This document shows, piece after piece, positions 6,467-25,301 of a stretch of DNA of 25,301 nt; within the stretch, counting starts at the first letter, position 1, and the number at the start of each line of letters is the position of its first letter. Location: the IMG/VR virus record IMGVR_UViG_3300046092_000004, positions 1-25,301 of that record. One strand, written 5' to 3'. The notes under the pieces are model-generated. The model saw only the letters and a list, made by a program, of their open reading frames with translations. It was not told the DNA's origin and did not search any database. Position numbers and translations under genes: made by a program. This DNA comes from a virus.

Positions 6467-6778
6467 TTACCAAGGCAATGGCGTGTTCTGAGGCGTAACA
6501 GGCGGCGTAATCATGGAGTTGAGTTGACCTTGTACGCATTCTTGGGCATTCAGCATATCTTGAGGAGAAATCCAGCCAACAACGATTTCAGGGGTTAGCT
6601 GGTCGTATGGTGTGACAGCCCCAACTTGCTCAGATGAGTCAAAGTGAGTTATTCCCCGCACAGATGATGTGAAGCCGCTATCAACACCAACGAGTTCCCA
6701 TAACATACTGACAACATAATTTGGATCAGGTTGCTGTATGGTGTTCATCACAAGGATTGTGGTTGTAAAGGTTGTCAT
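6467..6778 (-). CDS. Small fibre-associated phage protein
   Basis: The 103-residue product begins TTFTTTILVMNTIQQPD. A beta-rich part follows (MLWELVGVDSGFTSSVRG), then a conserved-looking segment, TPYDQLTPEIVVGWI, and it ends in proline-rich PPVTPQNTPLPW. I recall short proteins with this central pattern (Thr-Pro-Tyr-x-x-Leu-Thr-x-x-x-Val-x-x-Trp) directly after tail-fibre genes in many phages, without a proven function. It overlaps the end of the fibre gene by ATGA (6775-6778), which implies translational coupling. Candidates are a fibre chaperone or a virion accessory, but neither can be shown here. Confidence 0.65.
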   Translation of the reverse strand: MTTFTTTILVMNTIQQPDPNYVVSMLWELVGVDSGFTSSVRGITHFDSSEQVGAVTPYDQLTPEIVVGWISPQDMLNAQECVQGQLNSMITPPVTPQNTPLPW

Positions 6779-8082
6779 GTCTTGCTTTCTTGATTGGCTT
6801 TGTAAGCGTCTAACTCGGCTTTAAGTTCTTGAATGGCTTTTACTAAATAAGGTACAAGATTTTGATTTAAAGATAACATTCCATTTGAATCTTCAGTTAT
6901 TTGTTTTGGTAAAACTTCTTTGTATTCTTGAGCAATAAAACCAATATCATGTTTGTCATCTTTAATGTAATCAAACTCTACTGGCCTTAAAGATGAAATT
7001 ACAGATAATCCTGATTCTAAAGATACAACATTCTTTTTAATTCTTACATCAGAAGTTACTGACCATGTACTAGAATTTGCACCATTATAAGCACCAGATG
7101 TACCACCAATAAATGCGGTATTAGAACCTTTACCAGTAATGCTTGCACCAACAACAACTTCATTTGTAACTGCTACTCCTGATTGAGTTGCAACATAGCC
7201 AATATATGTATTACTAGAGCCAGTCGTTATTCCATACCCAGACTGAAAGCCCACAGCAGTGTTAGAGTTACCTGTTGAATTTGTTCTCAACGCCTCATAA
7301 CCAACGGCTACGTTTTCTTTTGCACTCAGGTTTAGTTTTGAAGCATTGTAGCCAATAGCAACGCAGCCATCGCCTGTAGTGTTGGTAAACATGGCATCAA
7401 CGCCAACGGCAATATTGTTGAAACCCGATGTATTGCTGTAAAGCGAACTGCCGCCGATGGCAATATTAGATGTGCCTGAGTTGCTTGTGTACAGCGATGC
7501 AAATCCGATGCCGATGTTTCCTGTACTAGTCGTGTTAGTAAACAGCGAATCACGGCCTACGGACAAATTGTGTGCGCCAGAAATATTGTTGGCCAAAGCA
7601 ACTGTTCCGAGGGCTACGTTACTTTCGCCTGTGTCGTTGTCAAACAGCGCAGAACGCCCAATGGCAATATTGGAGTTTCCGCTTGAGTTTGTTTCTAATG
7701 CACTTACGCCAACGGCTACATTGTTCACGCCAATGTTGTTTGTAATCAATGCCCGTGAGCCAACGGCTGTATTTCTAAGCCCACTTGTGTTTGCAGCTAA
7801 AGCAGATGCGCCAACAGCGGTGCAGTCTGCTCCCGATGTGACTGCGCCTAGTGTGCTAGTGCCCAATGCAGTGTTGGTGGCTGTGGATGTCAAACCACGA
7901 CCAATTTTCACCCCGTTGACTGTAATGTCCGATGCAGAGAAATCGTCAACCTTGGTTGCAACAGCAGTTGCAATATTGTTGAACTCAGTATCAATCTCAG
8001 TACCTTTGACAATCTTTAAAGCATTGCCAGAAGATAAACCATCTTTAGTGGCAAAGTTAGTTGATTTTGTGTAATTAGACAT
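6775..8082 (-). CDS. Tail fibre 2 with 17-residue repeats and S74 self-cleaving chaperone
   Basis: The 435-residue protein has three parts. The N-terminal 69 residues would connect to the tail. Residues about 70-307 hold fourteen 17-residue repeats of the form N-x-A-[VI]-G-x-x-[AS]-L-x-x-N-[TS]-[TS]-G (for example NIAIGRSALFDNDTG), a beta-prism pattern like the head of trimeric adhesins. Residues 344-435 form an intramolecular chaperone of the S74 type, starting SDVRIKK. In that family the Ser (S344) and the Lys five residues on (K349) form the dyad that cuts just before the Ser after trimer folding, releasing a fibre of about 343 residues. The C-terminal NLVPYLVKAIQELKAEL helix fits the family. 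It follows the nozzle gene by ten bases. Confidence 0.88.
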   Translation of the reverse strand: MSNYTKSTNFATKDGLSSGNALKIVKGTEIDTEFNNIATAVATKVDDFSASDITVNGVKIGRGLTSTATNTALGTSTLGAVTSGADCTAVGASALAANTSGLRNTAVGSRALITNNIGVNNVAVGVSALETNSSGNSNIAIGRSALFDNDTGESNVALGTVALANNISGAHNLSVGRDSLFTNTTSTGNIGIGFASLYTSNSGTSNIAIGGSSLYSNTSGFNNIAVGVDAMFTNTTGDGCVAIGYNASKLNLSAKENVAVGYEALRTNSTGNSNTAVGFQSGYGITTGSSNTYIGYVATQSGVAVTNEVVVGASITGKGSNTAFIGGTSGAYNGANSSTWSVTSDVRIKKNVVSLESGLSVISSLRPVEFDYIKDDKHDIGFIAQEYKEVLPKQITEDSNGMLSLNQNLVPYLVKAIQELKAELDAYKANQESKT

Positions 8083-15242: not shown

Positions 15243-17879
15243 TTATGGGTGGGTTGCAACGTAGGCTTCAAACTTTGCGCTTAATTCTTGCAATGCTTTT
15301 ACAAGAACAGGTACAAGTGACTCTCCGTTGTAGCGGAGTTTTTCGCTATCTTCGTTATCAATGATTACGGGATTATTGCCCTCTAATGCAAGTATTTCTT
15401 GCGCTTTAAAGCCGTATCTCACAGAGCCATGTGGCACATCAATCTCACGGGATTCTTTAAACTGAAATGCTACAGGGTTAAGTTTATTTACAAAATCAAG
15501 CCCATGAGTGATGGGTGCAAAATTCATTTTATCTCTTGCGTCAGAAACTACAGTCCACGCCACTTGAACATAGGCATTAGTGACTGATATATGACCCATA
15601 GATATACGATTGTTTTCTGTGATTACATTAAACACTGGCTGAACTGTGCCTGATGAACTTAGTGCGCCAACAGAAATATTTCCAGAACCAGTAGTAGTTG
15701 CGTGAAGCGTATACGCACCAAGGGCATAATTGTAAGCGCCTGTGGTATTAACAGAAAGAGCATATGCGCCTATTGCTGTATTATATAAACCAGTAGTATT
15801 TGCATAAGCAGCCTCATAACCTACTGCTGTGTTGTTAGATGCTGTGGTGTTGGAGTAAAGTGAATACATACCTTGTGCGGTGTTGTATTGCCCTGTGGTA
15901 TTACTTATAAGCGCACTCTGTCCGAAAGCAGAATTACGAAACCCTGTAGTGTTGTTGTACATTGCGTTTTTACCAACAACAGTATTGTATGAGCCTGTCG
16001 TATTAGTGCGTAATGCGCTTTCTCCAATAGCTACGTTTTCAAGACCAGTTGTATTTGATAAACCCGCTTGATACCCTACAGCAGTGTTGGTAGCCCCTGT
16101 GGTAGTTGCGTACAGTGCTTGATAGCCTACAGCAGTGTTGCTTGAGGCTGTGGTGTTGGAGATAAGTGCTTGAGCGCCTACTGCGGTGTTGTTTGCACCT
16201 GATGTGTTATTTGCAAGGGTTTGTTTACCCATAGCGGTATTAGCCGCACCCGTTGTTGCTTGGGCGGCTTCGTAGCCTACTGCCGTATTGTCAGAAGAAG
16301 TGCTATTTAATTGTAATGCTCGTGTTCCAACGGCAACATTTAGTGCGCCTGTGGTATTTGTATAAGCCGCTTGATAACCTACCGCTGTGTTGTTAGATGC
16401 TGTGGTGTTTTTTGCCAGAGCACCCAAGCCAAAAGCCGAATTGGAACTGCCCGTAGTGTTAGCCTGTAATGCACTGTCTGATAAACCAAAACCTAGTGCG
16501 CCAAAAGCACTGTTTCCAGCGCCAGTTGTGTTTGTTGATAGAGCATACGCACCAAAAGCCGCATTAGCAGCACCAGTTGTATTGGCGGTCAACGCATTAG
16601 CTCCAACAGCAGTTGAATAACTTACTGTATTTGCAGCCAAAGCATTTCTACCAATAGCGGTTATTTCAGCACCTGTACTGTTAGCCGCCAAAACATTTGA
16701 ACCCACCGCAGTGTTGGTAGCCACAGCACCAGCACCTCTGCCGACTGTGAGTCCTTCAATAGAACCCGCACCAGTAACAGTCAAGGTGCTAGATGCTGTC
16801 ACAGTTGTAAACGCACCGCTTGAAGCTGTAGTAGCGCCTACAGTGCCGTTGATATTAATTGAAGCAGTACCAGTCAGGTTTGTTACTGTTCCGCTAGATG
16901 GAGTACCAAGAACGCCACCATTTACAACAGGTGCGCCAGCAGTTCCTACGTTTACACCTAAAGCCGTTGCTACACCAGTTCCAAGACCAGATACACCAGT
17001 GGAAATTGGAAGACCTGTGGCATTAGTTAATGTTGCGCTTGTTGGAGTACCCAATATAGGCGTAACTAATGTGGGGCTTGTTGACAATACATTATTGCCA
17101 GAACCAGTAGAAGTTGTAACCCCTGTACCACCATTTGCAACTGCCAATGTTCCTGCTAGTGTAATTGTTCCTAATGTAGTGATAGGACTGCCAGTTACAG
17201 TCAATCCAGTTGTGCCACCTGATAGAGCAACACTTGTAACTGTTCCGCTTCCGCTACCGCCAGTTACAGTTACTGTTACATCGTCACCTGATGTAGTTGC
17301 AGTAATATTAGTACCAACAAAATTTAAACTTTTTACACCATTGGAAACTATTGTTCCTTCATCCTTTACAGCAACCGCCCCATTCGTTGACATGGTAGAG
17401 ATGACTTGAATCTTGTCAGCCAAGTCTGGTGAAACTACTTCACCTACGTTGATCTCTCTGCCATCAGACAAAGCAATGATTAAAGAACCATCAAAGTCAA
17501 TATTGGCGTTGGCTACAGACACACCATCGATGCCGTCAACTCCATTGAGTCCGTTAACTCCCGCTGCGCCTCTCTCACCCCTCAAACCATCCTTACCCGC
17601 CTTACCATCTTTACCATCACGCCCGTCTTTACCATTGATACCATCACGACCATCCTTGATAGTGATGATTCGTTTCTCAAGAACATCGGTTACGTTGTCG
17701 AACTTATTACGAATGTCAGTGTCAATCCTCTTCAGAGATTGGACAACCATTTGAGCATTCTCAGCCGCCTTACGCTGCTGCATTTGCTTAACTTCGGATA
17801 CAGAGTTGTTTACCGCATTAAAGATATTATCTGCAATGCCATCTACATTCCCATCATTGAAGATTTTATCTATTGCCAT
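15243..17879 (-). CDS. Tail fibre 1: collagen-like, 17-residue repeats, S74 chaperone
   Basis: This 878-residue trimeric fibre has a modular layout. It opens with a helical N-terminal coil (about 20-75). Next come about fourteen Gly-X-Y triplets at 77-119 (GRDGINGKDGRDGKDGKAG), then a Ser/Thr/Gly-rich beta section to about 388. About twenty 17-residue repeats follow at 389-733 (NTAVGYQALYATTTG type), and last is the S74 chaperone from S779 (SDARDKM). In the S74 family the dyad, here S779 and K784, cuts before the Ser after folding. This would leave a fibre of about 778 residues. The start overlaps the portal stop by 14 bases, and AGGAG lies seven bases before the ATG. It is unusual in lying between portal and scaffold. 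Confidence 0.88.
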   Translation of the reverse strand: MAIDKIFNDGNVDGIADNIFNAVNNSVSEVKQMQQRKAAENAQMVVQSLKRIDTDIRNKFDNVTDVLEKRIITIKDGRDGINGKDGRDGKDGKAGKDGLRGERGAAGVNGLNGVDGIDGVSVANANIDFDGSLIIALSDGREINVGEVVSPDLADKIQVISTMSTNGAVAVKDEGTIVSNGVKSLNFVGTNITATTSGDDVTVTVTGGSGSGTVTSVALSGGTTGLTVTGSPITTLGTITLAGTLAVANGGTGVTTSTGSGNNVLSTSPTLVTPILGTPTSATLTNATGLPISTGVSGLGTGVATALGVNVGTAGAPVVNGGVLGTPSSGTVTNLTGTASININGTVGATTASSGAFTTVTASSTLTVTGAGSIEGLTVGRGAGAVATNTAVGSNVLAANSTGAEITAIGRNALAANTVSYSTAVGANALTANTTGAANAAFGAYALSTNTTGAGNSAFGALGFGLSDSALQANTTGSSNSAFGLGALAKNTTASNNTAVGYQAAYTNTTGALNVAVGTRALQLNSTSSDNTAVGYEAAQATTGAANTAMGKQTLANNTSGANNTAVGAQALISNTTASSNTAVGYQALYATTTGATNTAVGYQAGLSNTTGLENVAIGESALRTNTTGSYNTVVGKNAMYNNTTGFRNSAFGQSALISNTTGQYNTAQGMYSLYSNTTASNNTAVGYEAAYANTTGLYNTAIGAYALSVNTTGAYNYALGAYTLHATTTGSGNISVGALSSSGTVQPVFNVITENNRISMGHISVTNAYVQVAWTVVSDARDKMNFAPITHGLDFVNKLNPVAFQFKESREIDVPHGSVRYGFKAQEILALEGNNPVIIDNEDSEKLRYNGESLVPVLVKALQELSAKFEAYVATHP

Positions 17880-19932: not shown

Positions 19933-21192
19933 TTATATCCCCGAAATAATATCTAGAGGCTCCCACTCATCTTCTTGGTCATCAACAAAGTATGAGGTTA
20001 CAGCCAGTTGGTCAATGTAGGAAAGAGCATCAGGCAAGTCATCGTGAACACCTTGGGCGGGAAACATCAAGAGTTGATCTTTGAATTCATCCCAATCTTC
20101 CTCAGAGTTCAGCACAATACGCCCATGCTCAAACCTTCCTTGGAGACTCCAGATAATCCTGTCAGTCTTTTTCCTGTTGCCATGCGTTAAGTCAACTATG
20201 TGCGAATATACATTATTTTTCCGCATTAAGTCTGACAAATACGGCAAAACAGCGTTTTTTAATGCTCCTCGCTCAATTCCAACACTCAAAGGGCGGTATT
20301 CACGCATCTTTAGCAGAATCGTGGCAGCAGTCTCTCTGATGTCCCAACGACCAAAAGCAATCTCTTTTACAAACCATTTGCCCTCATCAGTCACCTTGAC
20401 CACAGCAATGGCAGTCTGGTCTAACCTTTTCTTGGAATTAGCCGCTTGTTTGGCAACTTCTTCAAATCCAGCCAAGTCACAAGCTATGAAGTAAGAGCCA
20501 TACTGAGGTTCTTCCCCGTATTTAATCCATTCTTCTTTGAAGACATCTGACCCCGCATTTGAGAAACTTGCCATATACTCTTGCTTGAAGGCAAATGAAC
20601 TTAGGGTCTTCTTCGCACTCTCAATCTCGCTAGGGTCAATAAGTGGGTTATCTGCTGTCGTAAAGTGCCACGATTTCCACTCAGGGTCACTCCCCTCTTG
20701 CCCTAAGTTATACAAGTCATATAACCAGTTGCGTCCCTTTGGTGTCGATATGAACAGGGCTCTACCCTTCTTGTCACTCAAAGACGCTCGAATCACCTGT
20801 TCCCAAGTCTCAGGCTTAATGTCAGCCACCTCATCCAATACGGCGTAAGTCAATGAGACTCCTCGCAATGTGTCGGGTCTGTCTGAGCCCCTTACATATA
20901 TCTTTGCGCCGTTAACGAGTGTGACTTCCATGTTGTTGACATGGCTTGATTGGATAATCTCTCTGCCTACGTCAAGCAGAACATCCCACACAATCTGCCG
21001 AGCCTGCCCCTGAGTAGGGGCAACGTACATCACCGCACTACCAGCAGGACAGCTTAAACCCTCAATCAGTAGCGTAGTAACCGCTAACCTTGACTTACCA
21101 CACCGCCTGCCAGCAACCACAACCTTGAACCTCGTCTTATCGGCGTACACCTCCTGCTGCCAAGGCAGTAGCGCAAAGTTCAAATCAGCCAT
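19933..21192 (-). CDS. terL: Terminase large subunit (ATPase and nuclease)
   Basis: The 419-residue packaging motor shows all main motifs. There is a Walker A variant, AGRRCGKS, at 27-34 and a Walker B, YAVLDE, at 116-121 with catalytic E121. The coupling motif ISTPKG lies at 148-153. The RNase H-like nuclease acids are D239 (FIACDLAG), E307 (GIERGA) and an Asp in HDDLPDALSY (383-392). The protein uses ATP to move DNA through the portal and cuts concatemers. It is short for the family (about 420 residues) but appears complete. It overlaps terS by eight bases and is followed without gap by the portal. Confidence 0.95.
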   Translation of the reverse strand: MADLNFALLPWQQEVYADKTRFKVVVAGRRCGKSRLAVTTLLIEGLSCPAGSAVMYVAPTQGQARQIVWDVLLDVGREIIQSSHVNNMEVTLVNGAKIYVRGSDRPDTLRGVSLTYAVLDEVADIKPETWEQVIRASLSDKKGRALFISTPKGRNWLYDLYNLGQEGSDPEWKSWHFTTADNPLIDPSEIESAKKTLSSFAFKQEYMASFSNAGSDVFKEEWIKYGEEPQYGSYFIACDLAGFEEVAKQAANSKKRLDQTAIAVVKVTDEGKWFVKEIAFGRWDIRETAATILLKMREYRPLSVGIERGALKNAVLPYLSDLMRKNNVYSHIVDLTHGNRKKTDRIIWSLQGRFEHGRIVLNSEEDWDEFKDQLLMFPAQGVHDDLPDALSYIDQLAVTSYFVDDQEDEWEPLDIISGI

Positions 21193-21625
21193 TCTTAGCC
21201 TCTATGTCTTCTATGTCTTCTATGTCTTTGGGTTCTTCTTCAACTGTCGCAGCTACTGGTGCGCCTATGCCAGTGATATTAATGTGGATTGCACTCCTCT
21301 GGCTCTTATCCTTCTCAAACATACTAACTGGCAGGGTGCGGTCTACACACATCTTGATAGCCGCCATCTGTGCGGGGTGGTTGTCGTTCAACGCTATGCT
21401 AATCATCTTCTCGACAACATCCTTACCACTCGACCTGATAAGCATATCCTTCAAGTCTTTGATACGCTGGTTGTCGGTTTTGGGTAGAGCAAGATCAGGA
21501 TTCCTTGCGTACTCCTGTATCTGACGCTTTAAGCCGAATACGCCCTTGGGTCTGCCAGCCTTCTTCTTCTCGGTTGTCGGCTGTGCTTCCTCGTCTTGGA
21601 TGCTGTCCATTTGCTCTATCTTCAC
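21185..21625 (-). CDS. terS: Terminase small subunit
   Basis: The 146-residue protein has a basic patch, KKKAGRPKGVFGLKRQ, near residues 20-35 that should touch DNA. Helices around 58-105 (DMLIRSSGKDVVEKMISIAL; HPAQMAAIKMCVDRTLPVSM) fit oligomerisation, and the C-tail is acidic (DIEDIEDIEAKNG) and could contact TerL. TerS recognises the packaging start site. The start is GTG at 21,625 with AAGGA six bases upstream; the next ATG is five codons on. The position directly before terL supports the call. The acidic tail is encoded by three 9-base repeats. Confidence 0.88.
   Translation of the reverse strand: MKIEQMDSIQDEEAQPTTEKKKAGRPKGVFGLKRQIQEYARNPDLALPKTDNQRIKDLKDMLIRSSGKDVVEKMISIALNDNHPAQMAAIKMCVDRTLPVSMFEKDKSQRSAIHINITGIGAPVAATVEEEPKDIEDIEDIEAKNG
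21201..21227. repeat. Three perfect 9-base tandem repeats in the terS tail
   Basis: TCTATGTCT occurs three times without gap (plus strand). On the coding strand the repeat yields Asp-Ile-Glu units in the acidic C-terminus of TerS. Slippage could change the tail length in steps of three residues. Confidence 0.9.
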
Positions 21626-21663
21626 GATTGTCCTTGAGAGTTGTGGGCGTGATGTTGGGGGGG

Positions 21664-21672
21664 ACTATAGCA
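21664..21672 (-). promoter_or_regulatory. Extended -10 promoter candidate for the packaging and virion operon
   Basis: The minus strand reads TGC-TATAGT, matching the extended -10 form (TGN followed by TATAAT-like hexamer) of sigma-70 promoters. No good -35 hexamer lies 17 bases upstream, as is common for extended -10 promoters. Transcription would begin about 30 bases before the GTG of terS, giving a short leader with the AAGGA ribosome site. Confidence 0.4.
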
Positions 21673-21907
21673 AATTGGGGCGCAATATGCTAGAGTTATC
21701 AGCGTTGGCGCATAGTACCCGAATGATTTCCTTTGGGGTTATCTAATTACTAATTCGGAACTCCCTGCGCCAACACCTATTTTTTTTCAATTGGGAACTG
21801 GTGTATTGCCTCTTTTTTTCCAATTTCGCTTTTTCAGAGGGGCAGAGGCTCCCACAATTATCACGACCAGCGACCACCCCCTCCCCCCTATCAAAATGAT
21901 AAGACAG

Positions 21908-22140
21908 TTATCCACAGGCATCTGTGGATTCTGTGGATAACTTCTGTAAGTCATTGATTCCATTGGACTTTTACAAGACGCTTACAGATTGCTTACAAAA
22001 TCGGCTTTATACAATGTCCATTATGTTAACTTTAAATATCTGAAAGTGTTACACGCATCTGCAAATTGCAACTGGAAATGAAACCAAATGGGCAAAATGT
22101 GGATAACTTGCCCTCCGATCTGTGGATAACCTGTGGATAA
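21908..22140. other. Cluster of five perfect DnaA boxes
   Basis: The nine-base DnaA box TTATCCACA occurs once on the plus strand (21,908-21,916) and four times on the minus strand (TGTGGATAA at 21,932-21,940, 22,098-22,106, 22,121-22,129 and 22,132-22,140). A further near-match (TGTGGATTC) is at 21,923-21,931. Five exact copies within 233 bases is far above chance for a nine-base word. The arrangement is two groups of boxes flanking a more AT-rich middle of about 150 bases. Confidence 0.9.
21971..22003. repeat. Three TTACA repeats at exact 11-base spacing
   Basis: TTACAAGACGC, TTACAGATTGC and TTACAAAATCG begin at 21,971, 21,982 and 21,993, exactly 11 bases apart, about one helical turn. They lie between the two groups of DnaA boxes. 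A TGTAAG at 21,945-21,950 is the inverse of CTTACA. They look like short iterons or a phased protein-binding array. Confidence 0.6.
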
Positions 22141-22340
22141 CTTTTATATTTCGCATTCTGAAAAGGATTTTTTGGTCGGTGGGCGGAGAGGGAAAGAGGC
22201 GGGTGGTGCATTATCGGGGGACTGTCGTTGTAATGCGGTTTGGATTACATTGTTATTGTCAATGCAAACAAGAATGATTCGCATTTAAAAATTCTTAATA
22301 AAACTACGCTAAAACCTAACCTATCAATGCCGCTAGAACG

Positions 22341-22366
22341 CATTAAAACCGCCATTAAAGGCGGGT
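22341..22366 (-). terminator. Likely intrinsic terminator after the 67-aa gene
   Basis: The minus-strand transcript reads CCGCC-UUUAAU-GGCGG and then UUUUAAUG (stem 22,349-22,353 with 22,360-22,364). It lies directly downstream of the TAG at 22,370-22,372. The five GC-rich pairs and the short U-run fit a rho-independent terminator that would separate the replication-type genes from the packaging operon. The U-run is short, so efficiency may be moderate. Confidence 0.55.
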
Positions 22367-22369
22367 TAA

Positions 22370-22573
22370 CTAGCTATCCTTATCTACCCCTAAGAAATCC
22401 TTTAGGTCGTGCTGTGGGCGGTATCCTAGTTCCCACAAGATTGCAAAGCATTCCAGTGCATTCTTGAACCCAAGGGAAATGTCGCCACGACCAGCACAGG
22501 CAAGGATTGCCCTGTCAGCATCAGTTAATACCCTGTTGAAATGGGTTGTGTGTACGCTTGCTGGTCTAGCCAT
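22370..22573 (-). CDS. 67-aa protein, unknown
   Basis: The product reads MARPASVHTTHFNRVLTDAD, then RAILACAGRGDISLGFKNAL and ECFAILWELGYRP. It looks like a small helical protein whose AGRGDISLGFKNAL part resembles short regulatory or ribbon-helix-helix type phage proteins, but I cannot place it in a family. It begins two bases after the stop of the 217-aa gene without a clear ribosome site, which suggests coupled translation. A likely terminator follows directly. Confidence 0.65.
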   Translation of the reverse strand: MARPASVHTTHFNRVLTDADRAILACAGRGDISLGFKNALECFAILWELGYRPQHDLKDFLGVDKDS

Positions 22574-22575
22574 AA

Positions 22576-23229
22576 TCAGATTGGCTTGTACTTAGCTTCA
22601 TAAGGATCACCAGAGAAGATCGCATCTAGGTCTTCTTCCATGTCATCAAAGCCTGAACCTTGACCAAATCCTTCTTTCGGCGTGAACTTAGTCATCCTTG
22701 CAGTTGGGGACAGGGCTTTAGCCTTAATGATGGTCTGCACCTGTGGCTCTTGCAGGAACACCTCAATTTCTTCCAGAGTCCAGATGTTCCCATTGTTGAT
22801 GTCTTTGCGATGGGTCTGGAGTTCGACTGCATCGTTCTCTGTTCTGACCACAACCATCGGAACTCCTCGGACTGACTTCCATTCAAGGAACTGGATGGGT
22901 GGGTTTGGTTCAATCTCATTTTCCAAAGCCCACTTCTCCAAAGCATCAAATCCCTTGCACATCCCGTTAACTGCTTTATGCAGCTTGTCGAGGTCACCCA
23001 TATCTAAGGCATCCCAAACTCTACCCATTTGCAGCCAAACCTTAGTCCTAAACTCAATGTCAACTAAAGTAATCAATCGGTCAACACCCCATTTCTCGTA
23101 GTGCTGACCCTTTTTACGCTCAAGTTCCACCAGCACAGCGTTAGACTGAATCTCCCACTGCGTTGCCTGTCTAGCTGGCTTGATAACTTCAGGAACATCT
23201 TTTCTCGACCTTGATCTAACCATTTTCAT
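22576..23229 (-). CDS. 217-aa protein in the replication region, unknown
   Basis: The product starts MKMVRSRSRKDVPEVIKPAR, strongly basic. The middle is helical (LVELERKKGQHYEKWGVDRL; KVWLQMGRVWDALDMGDLDK), and the C-terminal third is acidic (FGQGSGFDDMEEDLDAIFSG). I recognise no catalytic motif. The acidic tail would suit a single-strand binding or partner-binding role beside a primase-helicase, but this is only a guess. The ATG at 23,229 has AAGGAG two bases upstream and the in-frame ATG at 23,223 has it eight bases upstream, so the second Met (MVRSRSRK) may be the real start. The mRNA leader contains the GACAAA repeat hairpin. Confidence 0.75.
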   Translation of the reverse strand: MKMVRSRSRKDVPEVIKPARQATQWEIQSNAVLVELERKKGQHYEKWGVDRLITLVDIEFRTKVWLQMGRVWDALDMGDLDKLHKAVNGMCKGFDALEKWALENEIEPNPPIQFLEWKSVRGVPMVVVRTENDAVELQTHRKDINNGNIWTLEEIEVFLQEPQVQTIIKAKALSPTARMTKFTPKEGFGQGSGFDDMEEDLDAIFSGDPYEAKYKPI

Positions 23230-23379: not shown

Positions 23380-25301
23380 TCATGTCTCTAGTGCAGACTT
23401 CAGCCACACCCAATTAGACCCAATTACAACCTTATTTACGGCTACAAGTCTCTCCCTTGCCCGTGTCCAAGCCTTCTTGAAAGCAGCTTTATCATCCTCT
23501 GTACACCCTTTAATGTTCCAGAATTCATCCTTCCAATCATCCAAACTCACGCCAAACCTGCTAGTACCATCTACTACACGATATGAGCCTTTAGCCTTAA
23601 TCGCTTTGTAGAGAGAATCCAACTCAATCTTCTGATTTCCACCGCTACCTGAGTTGTTTTTAGTCCCTTTTGGTCTGCTGTTAGCGATCTCAGGGTTGGG
23701 TCTAACTGCCAAACTGGTGATGGTTTCAAACCCAAGGGCTGACTCACCGACCTCAACATTCACCACTTCAATGCCTACAGTTATGGAATCTGCGCCATCC
23801 TTTTGCTTAGTAACTGTCAAGATGGCATTGCCTACAACTGATGTATCTGCTGAGTTGATAACCGAGTCTTGCCTTTGTATCTCAAGTTCGGTATCCACAG
23901 CACCTAACAGGCTTGAGTGTCCTCGCAGACCTTTCGTTATGTCTTTACCGCTGTGGTGAATCAGCAACATGGCACAGAGGTAGATTGCTTGTAACTTTCC
24001 CGCTTGGGTGATGAAACCACCCATGTCTTCCGAGGAGTTCTCGTTAAAGCCGCCACCTGACATCCTCATCAGGGTATCTAGGATGATGAGTTCAAGGGGT
24101 TCATCTATTTCGGCTATGAGTTCGTTGATGGCAGCTACTAAGGAATCAAAGTCTTCTTGACTTGATCTGATGTTGATTTGAGCCCTGATAACGTAGAGAT
24201 TTGCGCCATCTGGTGAGTTATTCTGTATCTTGCAAGCCTTGACCCTAGCGCCCATACCGCCATGACCCTCACCAGCTATGTACAGGACTGCGCCTTTCTT
24301 AGGTACTCTGTAACCCATCCAATCCCTGCCAGTTGCTACTGCTTCTGCAATATCTAGGGCAATGAACGACTTGAATGATGCTGGTGGTGCGTACAGTGCT
24401 ACGAATGCTCGTCTAGGGATGATGGACTCTATGAGCCACTCAACTGGTTCATCCTTTATGCTGTCCCATGACTCGACAAGGAATCTAGACTGATGGCTAG
24501 ATTGCTCCGCAACTTGCGTAGGTTCAGGGTTATCCAACAATCTTTGTGGAGTGTGAACATCTGTAGGGGACTCCACAACGGGACAGGCTTTCGCTATTTG
24601 CGCCAGCAAGGTGCGAGAACCATCGTATCTGTTGACCCACTCGTAAGCATCTTCTTTGGGATTACTTAGGTTCAAGTCCAAGACCCTGACGCTCTTGGCG
24701 AATGGTATGAGTGCCTCTGTCACCTTTTGGGCGTAGTGCCAACCTACTAGGTCATTGTCTGGCACTACTACCACGTTGGCATCCTTAAAGTATTGGTTTA
24801 AGTCATCATTCCAACCACTTGCTCCAGCATGACTTGTCGTAGCCACTACGCCCAAGCTGCCCAAGGCATCTGCCGCTTTCTCACCTTCTGTTATGTAGAC
24901 AACCCTACCAGCGGCTGTTGCCTGTCGCAGTTCGGGCAGCTTGTAGGGTACAAGTCTGCAATCTCCTAGCTTGCCTACTCGACTGCCATCGGGCATGACT
25001 CTGAGGGTTTTGTAGGTCTTGCCTTTGGAGTCAAAGGTCTTGAATCTTTGCTTGATGAACAGGCTGATGCCTTCCTCATCTGTGTAATGCCATTCATGCT
25101 CTAGCACAGGCGTAGAGATCAATGGGATAGGTTTCATTGGCTTGATGCTGTCGAGGTAGTCAGGTCTATCAGGTAAGACTGGCAGAAGTCCCATATCTTT
25201 GATGGTTGAGAAGACTGTATGCTGGTCACAACCGCTGTGACACTTGAATAGGAAGTTGCCATCATCCGACATTGAGATTGAGAGGCTTGGATGCTTGTCT
25301 C
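23380..25301 (-). CDS. Primase-helicase fusion (CHC2/TOPRIM and RepA-like ATPase), 5' end outside window
   Basis: The frame stays open to the window edge. Upstream of the ATG at 25,272 it reads DKHPSLSIS, the usual lead into CHC2 primase fingers, so that ATG is internal and the gene is partial. Counting from that Met, the second zinc pair is C11-x3-C15 (KCHSGC). A TOPRIM domain shows EGEKAAD at 129-135 and VVPDNDLVG at 169-177. A RepA/RecA-like ATPase has Walker A variant APPASFKS at 295-302, Walker B LELIILDT at 393-400 and LLIHHSGKD at 436-444. It would make primers and unwind DNA at the phage fork. The total above 640 residues fits such bifunctional replicases. It is followed by the GACAAA repeat spacer. 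Confidence 0.88.
   Translation of the reverse strand, partial: DKHPSLSISMSDDGNFLFKCHSGCDQHTVFSTIKDMGLLPVLPDRPDYLDSIKPMKPIPLISTPVLEHEWHYTDEEGISLFIKQRFKTFDSKGKTYKTLRVMPDGSRVGKLGDCRLVPYKLPELRQATAAGRVVYITEGEKAADALGSLGVVATTSHAGASGWNDDLNQYFKDANVVVVPDNDLVGWHYAQKVTEALIPFAKSVRVLDLNLSNPKEDAYEWVNRYDGSRTLLAQIAKACPVVESPTDVHTPQRLLDNPEPTQVAEQSSHQSRFLVESWDSIKDEPVEWLIESIIPRRAFVALYAPPASFKSFIALDIAEAVATGRDWMGYRVPKKGAVLYIAGEGHGGMGARVKACKIQNNSPDGANLYVIRAQINIRSSQEDFDSLVAAINELIAEIDEPLELIILDTLMRMSGGGFNENSSEDMGGFITQAGKLQAIYLCAMLLIHHSGKDITKGLRGHSSLLGAVDTELEIQRQDSVINSADTSVVGNAILTVTKQKDGADSITVGIEVVNVEVGESALGFETITSLAVRPNPEIANSRPKGTKNNSGSGGNQKIELDSLYKAIKAKGSYRVVDGTSRFGVSLDDWKDEFWNIKGCTEDDKAAFKKAWTRARERLVAVNKVVIGSNWVWLKSALET

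Follow-up and report, generated by a model that had tools for sequence, protein, structure and literature searches.

Gene setting of the element

The window analysed here, that is, the whole stretch of DNA under study, is one entire but partial IMG/VR record of 25,301 bases. A 744-base gap within it (21626-22369) lies between the replication genes and the packaging genes, all of which are on the minus strand, and houses a series of DnaA boxes. These boxes delimit an oriC-like element of 233 bases (21908-22140, minus strand, the direction of the phage genes) that is ungapped in 49 distinct relatives, although their flanking sequences have diverged.

On one side of the gap are the genes of the replication module. 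The first encodes a protein of 67 aa (22370-22573, minus strand) that adjoins the element and travels with it; it has no Pfam or PHROG match and gives a small helical model. The second encodes a protein of 217 aa (22576-23229, minus strand) that also co-travels with the element, and its matches are limited to uncharacterised phage proteins, with none in Pfam, in PHROG or among PDB folds. These are followed by the replication gene linked to the element, a primase-helicase with a RepA-type ATPase (AAA_25) and a primase part (23380-25272, minus strand). As listed, this ORF is 630 aa long and reaches nearly to the contig end; the homologue in a relative has 671 aa. On the other side of the gap are a predicted small terminase subunit (TerS; 21185-21625, minus strand), called by its position directly upstream of TerL and with no family match of its own, and the large subunit itself (TerL; 19933-21192, minus strand; phrog_2, E 3e-45), which served as the query for collecting relatives.

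Because the record is partial, statements about the whole genome were drawn from relatives. The longer of these have genomes of ~33-36 kb that close upon themselves, with an exact end overlap of 99 bases in one (G010) and an overlap of 0.9 kb at 91% in another (G001). A third (G003, IMGVR_UViG_3300028025_001978) is a 41 kb contig that repeats after about 33.3 kb, its copies differing by ~9-14% over most of the overlap; from its sequence, it seems to be two strains joined together. The ~8 kb absent from the window could be read in G001, where it encodes a 199-aa protein without a family match, a DUF2800/PD-(D/E)XK exonuclease, a RuvC-like resolvase, a small HTH protein, a peptidase and a phosphoesterase. 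Models for DnaA and for family-A polymerase had no match in 20 related records.

Near-identical DNA was sought in deposited phages without a useful match, and a host search by TerL through 399 genomes of one bacterial order returned partial matches only, at 33-38%. Elsewhere in the window, at 6775-8082 and 15243-17879, are two long proteins with many repeats of an N-T/S-G-x-x-N-x-A-x-G motif and similar C-terminal parts. Both are likely tail fibre proteins, and the C-terminal part of each is probably an intramolecular chaperone domain.

Boxes, melting region and IHF site

The preliminary description had claimed five perfect DnaA boxes in two groups, and all five are found where it placed them. 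The 25,301-base contig has five exact copies of TTATCCACA, all of them within 233 bases. Among 300 first-order Markov versions of the window, exact boxes averaged 0.26, with a maximum of two and never more than one within 233 bases. Read in the direction of the genes, the boxes start at 0, 11, 34, 200 and 224, the last being inverted. Box 1 (22132-22140), box 2 (22121-22129), box 3 (22098-22106) and box 4 (21932-21940) are all on the minus strand; box 3 is oriented towards the melting region. So is box 5 (21908-21916, plus strand), which is inverted relative to the other four. A possible weak sixth box, GAATCCACA (21923-21931, minus strand), is in many relatives one mismatch from the consensus (CTATCCACA or GTATCCACA).

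Relatives were collected via the terminase and via the helicase, independently of the boxes. The box register is held ungapped in 49 distinct relatives, and 16 more are shifted by one base in the middle. The in-register elements (n = 49) diverge from one another by 22% on average and by up to 39%. Boxes 2-5 nevertheless have pairwise identities of 0.93-0.99 (the mean for box 2 is 0.99), as against only 0.36-0.47 in the sequence outside the element. Box 1 is lower, at 0.74, because one subfamily lacks it. Across the family, 212 of the 245 box positions hold exactly TTATCCACA; where a single base departs from it, this is mostly at position 3 or 5 (TTGTCCACA, TTATGCACA). Stop codons are present in all six frames of the element in nearly all members, which excludes a coding explanation for the conservation. 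The same box layout, a search for which was proposed in the preliminary description, is thus kept in relatives, at a non-coding position.

Between the two groups of boxes lies a predicted DNA unwinding element (22005-22054), the least stable 50-base window near the boxes and at the 0.2 percentile of the window as a whole. In seven genomes, the duplex stability of the melting region was at the 0.02-0.7 percentile, and in each it lay between the two box groups. The AT-richer middle noted earlier is indeed AT-rich, and one of its 50-base windows ranks among the least stable in the genome. Inside the unwinding element is a conserved core, GTTAACATAATGGACATTGTAT (22009-22030, minus strand), with an identity of 0.92.

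Three TTACA words at a phase of 11 bases had also been described in this middle. They are literally present in the window, where they start at 21971, 21982 and 21993, but only the middle copy (21982-21986, plus strand; TGTAA on the minus strand) is conserved, in 48 of 49 members. The copy at 21993 is found in 23 of the 49 in-register relatives, 24 having TGTCA there on the opposite strand, and the copy at 21971 is found in 10 of 49. Since the triplet is unconserved, its role as a functional iteron was rejected. Apart from the DnaA boxes, no iteron-like array of phage-specific direct repeats was found.

The strong conservation of the core and of TGTAA, neither of which has a known host binder, bears on who opens the element. 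It is conceivable that the element is an origin whose real initiator is phage-encoded (the primase-helicase, the 67-aa protein or the 217-aa protein) and recognises the core, with DnaA and IHF only helping. Models for such an arrangement are the alpha protein of P4, in which the primase-helicase itself is the initiator, and the iteron plasmids and phage P1, in which DnaA and IHF have a helper role. The two small proteins, being of no known family and co-travelling with the element, would provide candidates. Nevertheless, this reading meets several objections: there is no array of direct repeats of the iteron kind, a single TTACA copy is conserved, the small proteins gave no match to known initiator families, and the model of the 217-aa protein matches no solved fold. 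We consider a phage-encoded initiator unlikely, though a serious contender. As for a Rep protein, none of the scanned proteins matched a known Rep family, but the 67-aa and 217-aa linked proteins are without a family assignment.

A candidate site for integration host factor, AATCAATGACTTA (21947-21959, minus strand), does not figure in the preliminary description; it matches the consensus WATCAANNNNTTR exactly and is situated next to box 4, on the side of the melting region. The consensus is found at the same place in all 65 distinct members, and its distance from box 3 is 147 or 146 bases in every one. The fixed bases are invariant, identity at the NNNN positions is 0.74, and, of 49 members, 28 have A and 21 have G at the R position. 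By itself, the IHF consensus is not rare (1.8 matches are expected per window), so the case for the site lies in its constant position and in which of its bases vary. IHF being known from Proteobacteria, the presence of the site suggests that the host belongs to that group.

Linkage to the replication module and occurrence in other phages

The element is linked to a replication module, defined as the helicase and/or the 67-aa and 217-aa ORFs. Among TerL-selected loci that extend 2.5 kb or more upstream and whose terminases are nearly the same, boxes were present in 15 of 15 with the module (two of these, L046 and L047, have a distant module version and two boxes) and near the terminase in 0 of 23 without it, counts that are uncorrected for shared ancestry. 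Within the 23, a single isolated box occurs elsewhere in two loci, and a 67-aa ORF of 36% similarity in two. In the 20 longer records, some of which were chosen by their helicase and which are likewise uncorrected for shared ancestry, boxes occurred in 14 of 14 with the AAA_25 helicase and in 0 of 6 without. Two of the box-less genomes (G012 and G015) encode a domain of phage replication-initiation proteins; no replacement initiator was identified in the remaining four.

This linkage helps in judging whether the element could instead be a sink for DnaA. The E. coli locus datA requires an IHF site located between DnaA boxes (PMC5835720), and the phage element combines the same two kinds of site. 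A sink or inactivator of this sort would slow host replication, with the phage origin elsewhere, and DnaA would be bound anyway by five strong boxes present in many phage copies. Still, the element goes together with the replication module, sister phages that have another module lack it, and it encloses a strong melting region for which a sink has no need. datA itself lacks an unwinding element, is not tied to replication genes and works by DnaA-ATP hydrolysis. A sink, the alternative raised in the preliminary description, is therefore less likely than an origin opened by host DnaA, and we regard it as very improbable.

TerS also follows the boxes: its identity is 79-97% in most box-bearing relatives and 46-58% in most box-less ones, so that linkage alone cannot tell an origin from a packaging site. 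A cosB- or pac-like site bound by the adjacent small terminase together with IHF would suit the position of the element, which immediately precedes the genes of the predicted TerS and of TerL; the cosB of lambda also carries an IHF site. The repeated word, however, is the exact DnaA consensus with its commonest departures at positions 3 and 5, distant phages with unrelated terminases share both the word and its 11-base pitch, and in several distant phages no terminase was among the nearby genes checked. Taken together, these points make a packaging site a very improbable explanation. A last reading, that the boxes exert DnaA-regulated promoter control over the terminase operon, draws on the placement of the element ahead of genes transcribed in one direction. 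The promoter scan, though, gave one weak site, on the plus strand only and fewer than in shuffles, and control of this kind would leave the IHF site, the melting region and the module linkage without explanation; its chances appear close to nil.

DnaA arrays are also found in more distant phages (helicase 27-38% and TerL 24-54% identity), in the same region near the helicase and terminase genes. In one such group, the array lies between the small and large terminase genes, with the helicase 2.3 kb off, and in another it directly follows the helicase. Other arrays adjoin exonuclease, initiator or PAPS reductase genes, and proximity to the terminase is accordingly common rather than general. A scan for the 0/11/34 sub-layout returned at least 119 viral stretches, and several unrelated phage groups have arrays pitched at 11 bases, some with IHF matches. 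The same sub-layout occurred in 42 bacterial loci, none of which had the 200/224 pair, and the possibility that the array was copied from a bacterial oriC was rejected.

Several other arrangements were observed. Among the matches listed, L166, L177, L191, L222 and about 26 similar viral loci make up a second phage group, in which four DnaA boxes stand at 0/11/22/34 and two more lie about 210 bases upstream with IHF consensus matches between, near terminase and helicase genes. Lactococcus phage AM3 (KY554770.1; L336:2143-3107) has ten exact boxes, many of them spaced 20-21 bases apart, in a stretch of under 1 kb that is largely unannotated. In Vibrio phage BD5 (PV244425.1; L338:3917-4106), a hypothetical gene covers 190 bases that contain five exact boxes and an IHF consensus. 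In the 4.7 kb single-stranded DNA phage genome of a member of the Microviridae (MG945568.1; L337:964-1027), four exact boxes occur in 72 bases between annotated features.

A probable origin opened by host DnaA and IHF

Together, these features argue that the element is an oriC-like phage replication origin, which host DnaA and IHF would open and the phage primase-helicase would then use, a reading to which we assign a probability of roughly two in three. The sequence suggests that replication is started by host DnaA rather than by a phage-encoded initiator. A start through host DnaA had been proposed in the preliminary description, and it gains support from the layout kept in non-coding DNA, the co-segregation with replication genes, the IHF site and the melting region. 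GC skew, which had been put forward as a further check, gave no such support: four trimmed circular genomes and several linear ones had no turn at the boxes, and the skew tracks gene direction. An inflection in GC skew often accompanies chromosome origins but is not required of them.

We infer binding of the element by DnaA and IHF, with DnaA as the main initiator, loading of the phage helicase at this site and the use of a host polymerase. In such a scheme, host DnaA would occupy boxes 1-3 and boxes 4-5, which stand on opposite sides of the AT-rich melting region, while host IHF would bind between the melting region and box 4 and bend the DNA. The bend could allow the DnaA complexes to meet and open the core. 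The phage primase-helicase would then load, either replacing or joining the host helicase, and host polymerase would copy the phage genome. During loop-back opening of E. coli oriC, a bend induced by IHF lets DnaA that is bound to double-stranded boxes reach the melted strand (PMC10797057, PMC13220808); the layout of the phage element fits this kind of opening, with boxes 1-3 on one side of its core and the IHF site and boxes 4-5 on the other. The DnaA-trio motif, in which only the middle A is fixed (PMC8287927), is too degenerate to be assessed in one element, and it has been reviewed as possibly dispensable where IHF is present.

Known systems provide partial parallels. The origins of iteron plasmids and of P1 (pSC101, R6K, RK2, P1 oriR) similarly have DnaA boxes, often an IHF or HU site, and an AT-rich region. 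Those origins need Rep bound to iterons, whereas no iteron array and no known Rep family were found with the phage element. E. coli oriC is of about equal size (245 bp, PMC13220808), and it has the same box word, an AT-rich unwinding element and a DNA-bending IHF site; the phage element differs in that it adjoins a phage primase-helicase and has boxes on both sides of the unwinding element. The lambda origin also has DnaA-box-like sites footprinted by DnaA (PMC3985674), but these are only two imperfect boxes, the initiator is the O protein on its own iterons, and DnaA acts on transcription. DnaA boxes in phage and plasmid origins are thus already known (lambda, P1, pSC101, R6K), and they have been predicted in single phages (PMC11512268). 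The latter include Pseudomonas phage vB_PseuGesM_254, for which the available part of the report gives a single-genome Ori-Finder prediction with DnaA boxes and offers no conservation, IHF or linkage evidence (PMC11512268). In the open-access literature searched, we found no paper on a conserved oriC-like phage element of this kind.

More tentatively, and with odds somewhat short of even, there could be a widespread group of phages that lack any initiator protein and rely purely on host DnaA and IHF at an oriC look-alike. Sister phages would have swapped the element for an initiator gene or the reverse, and the two would be interchangeable modules. Sister phages with and without the element provide a natural comparison of initiation by an initiator protein and by host DnaA. 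Phage origins are mostly unknown in uncultured viruses, and a rigid element made up of DnaA boxes, an IHF site and a melting core offers a way to find them in metagenomes. As an origin, the element would also tie the replication of the phage to the cell-cycle control of its host.
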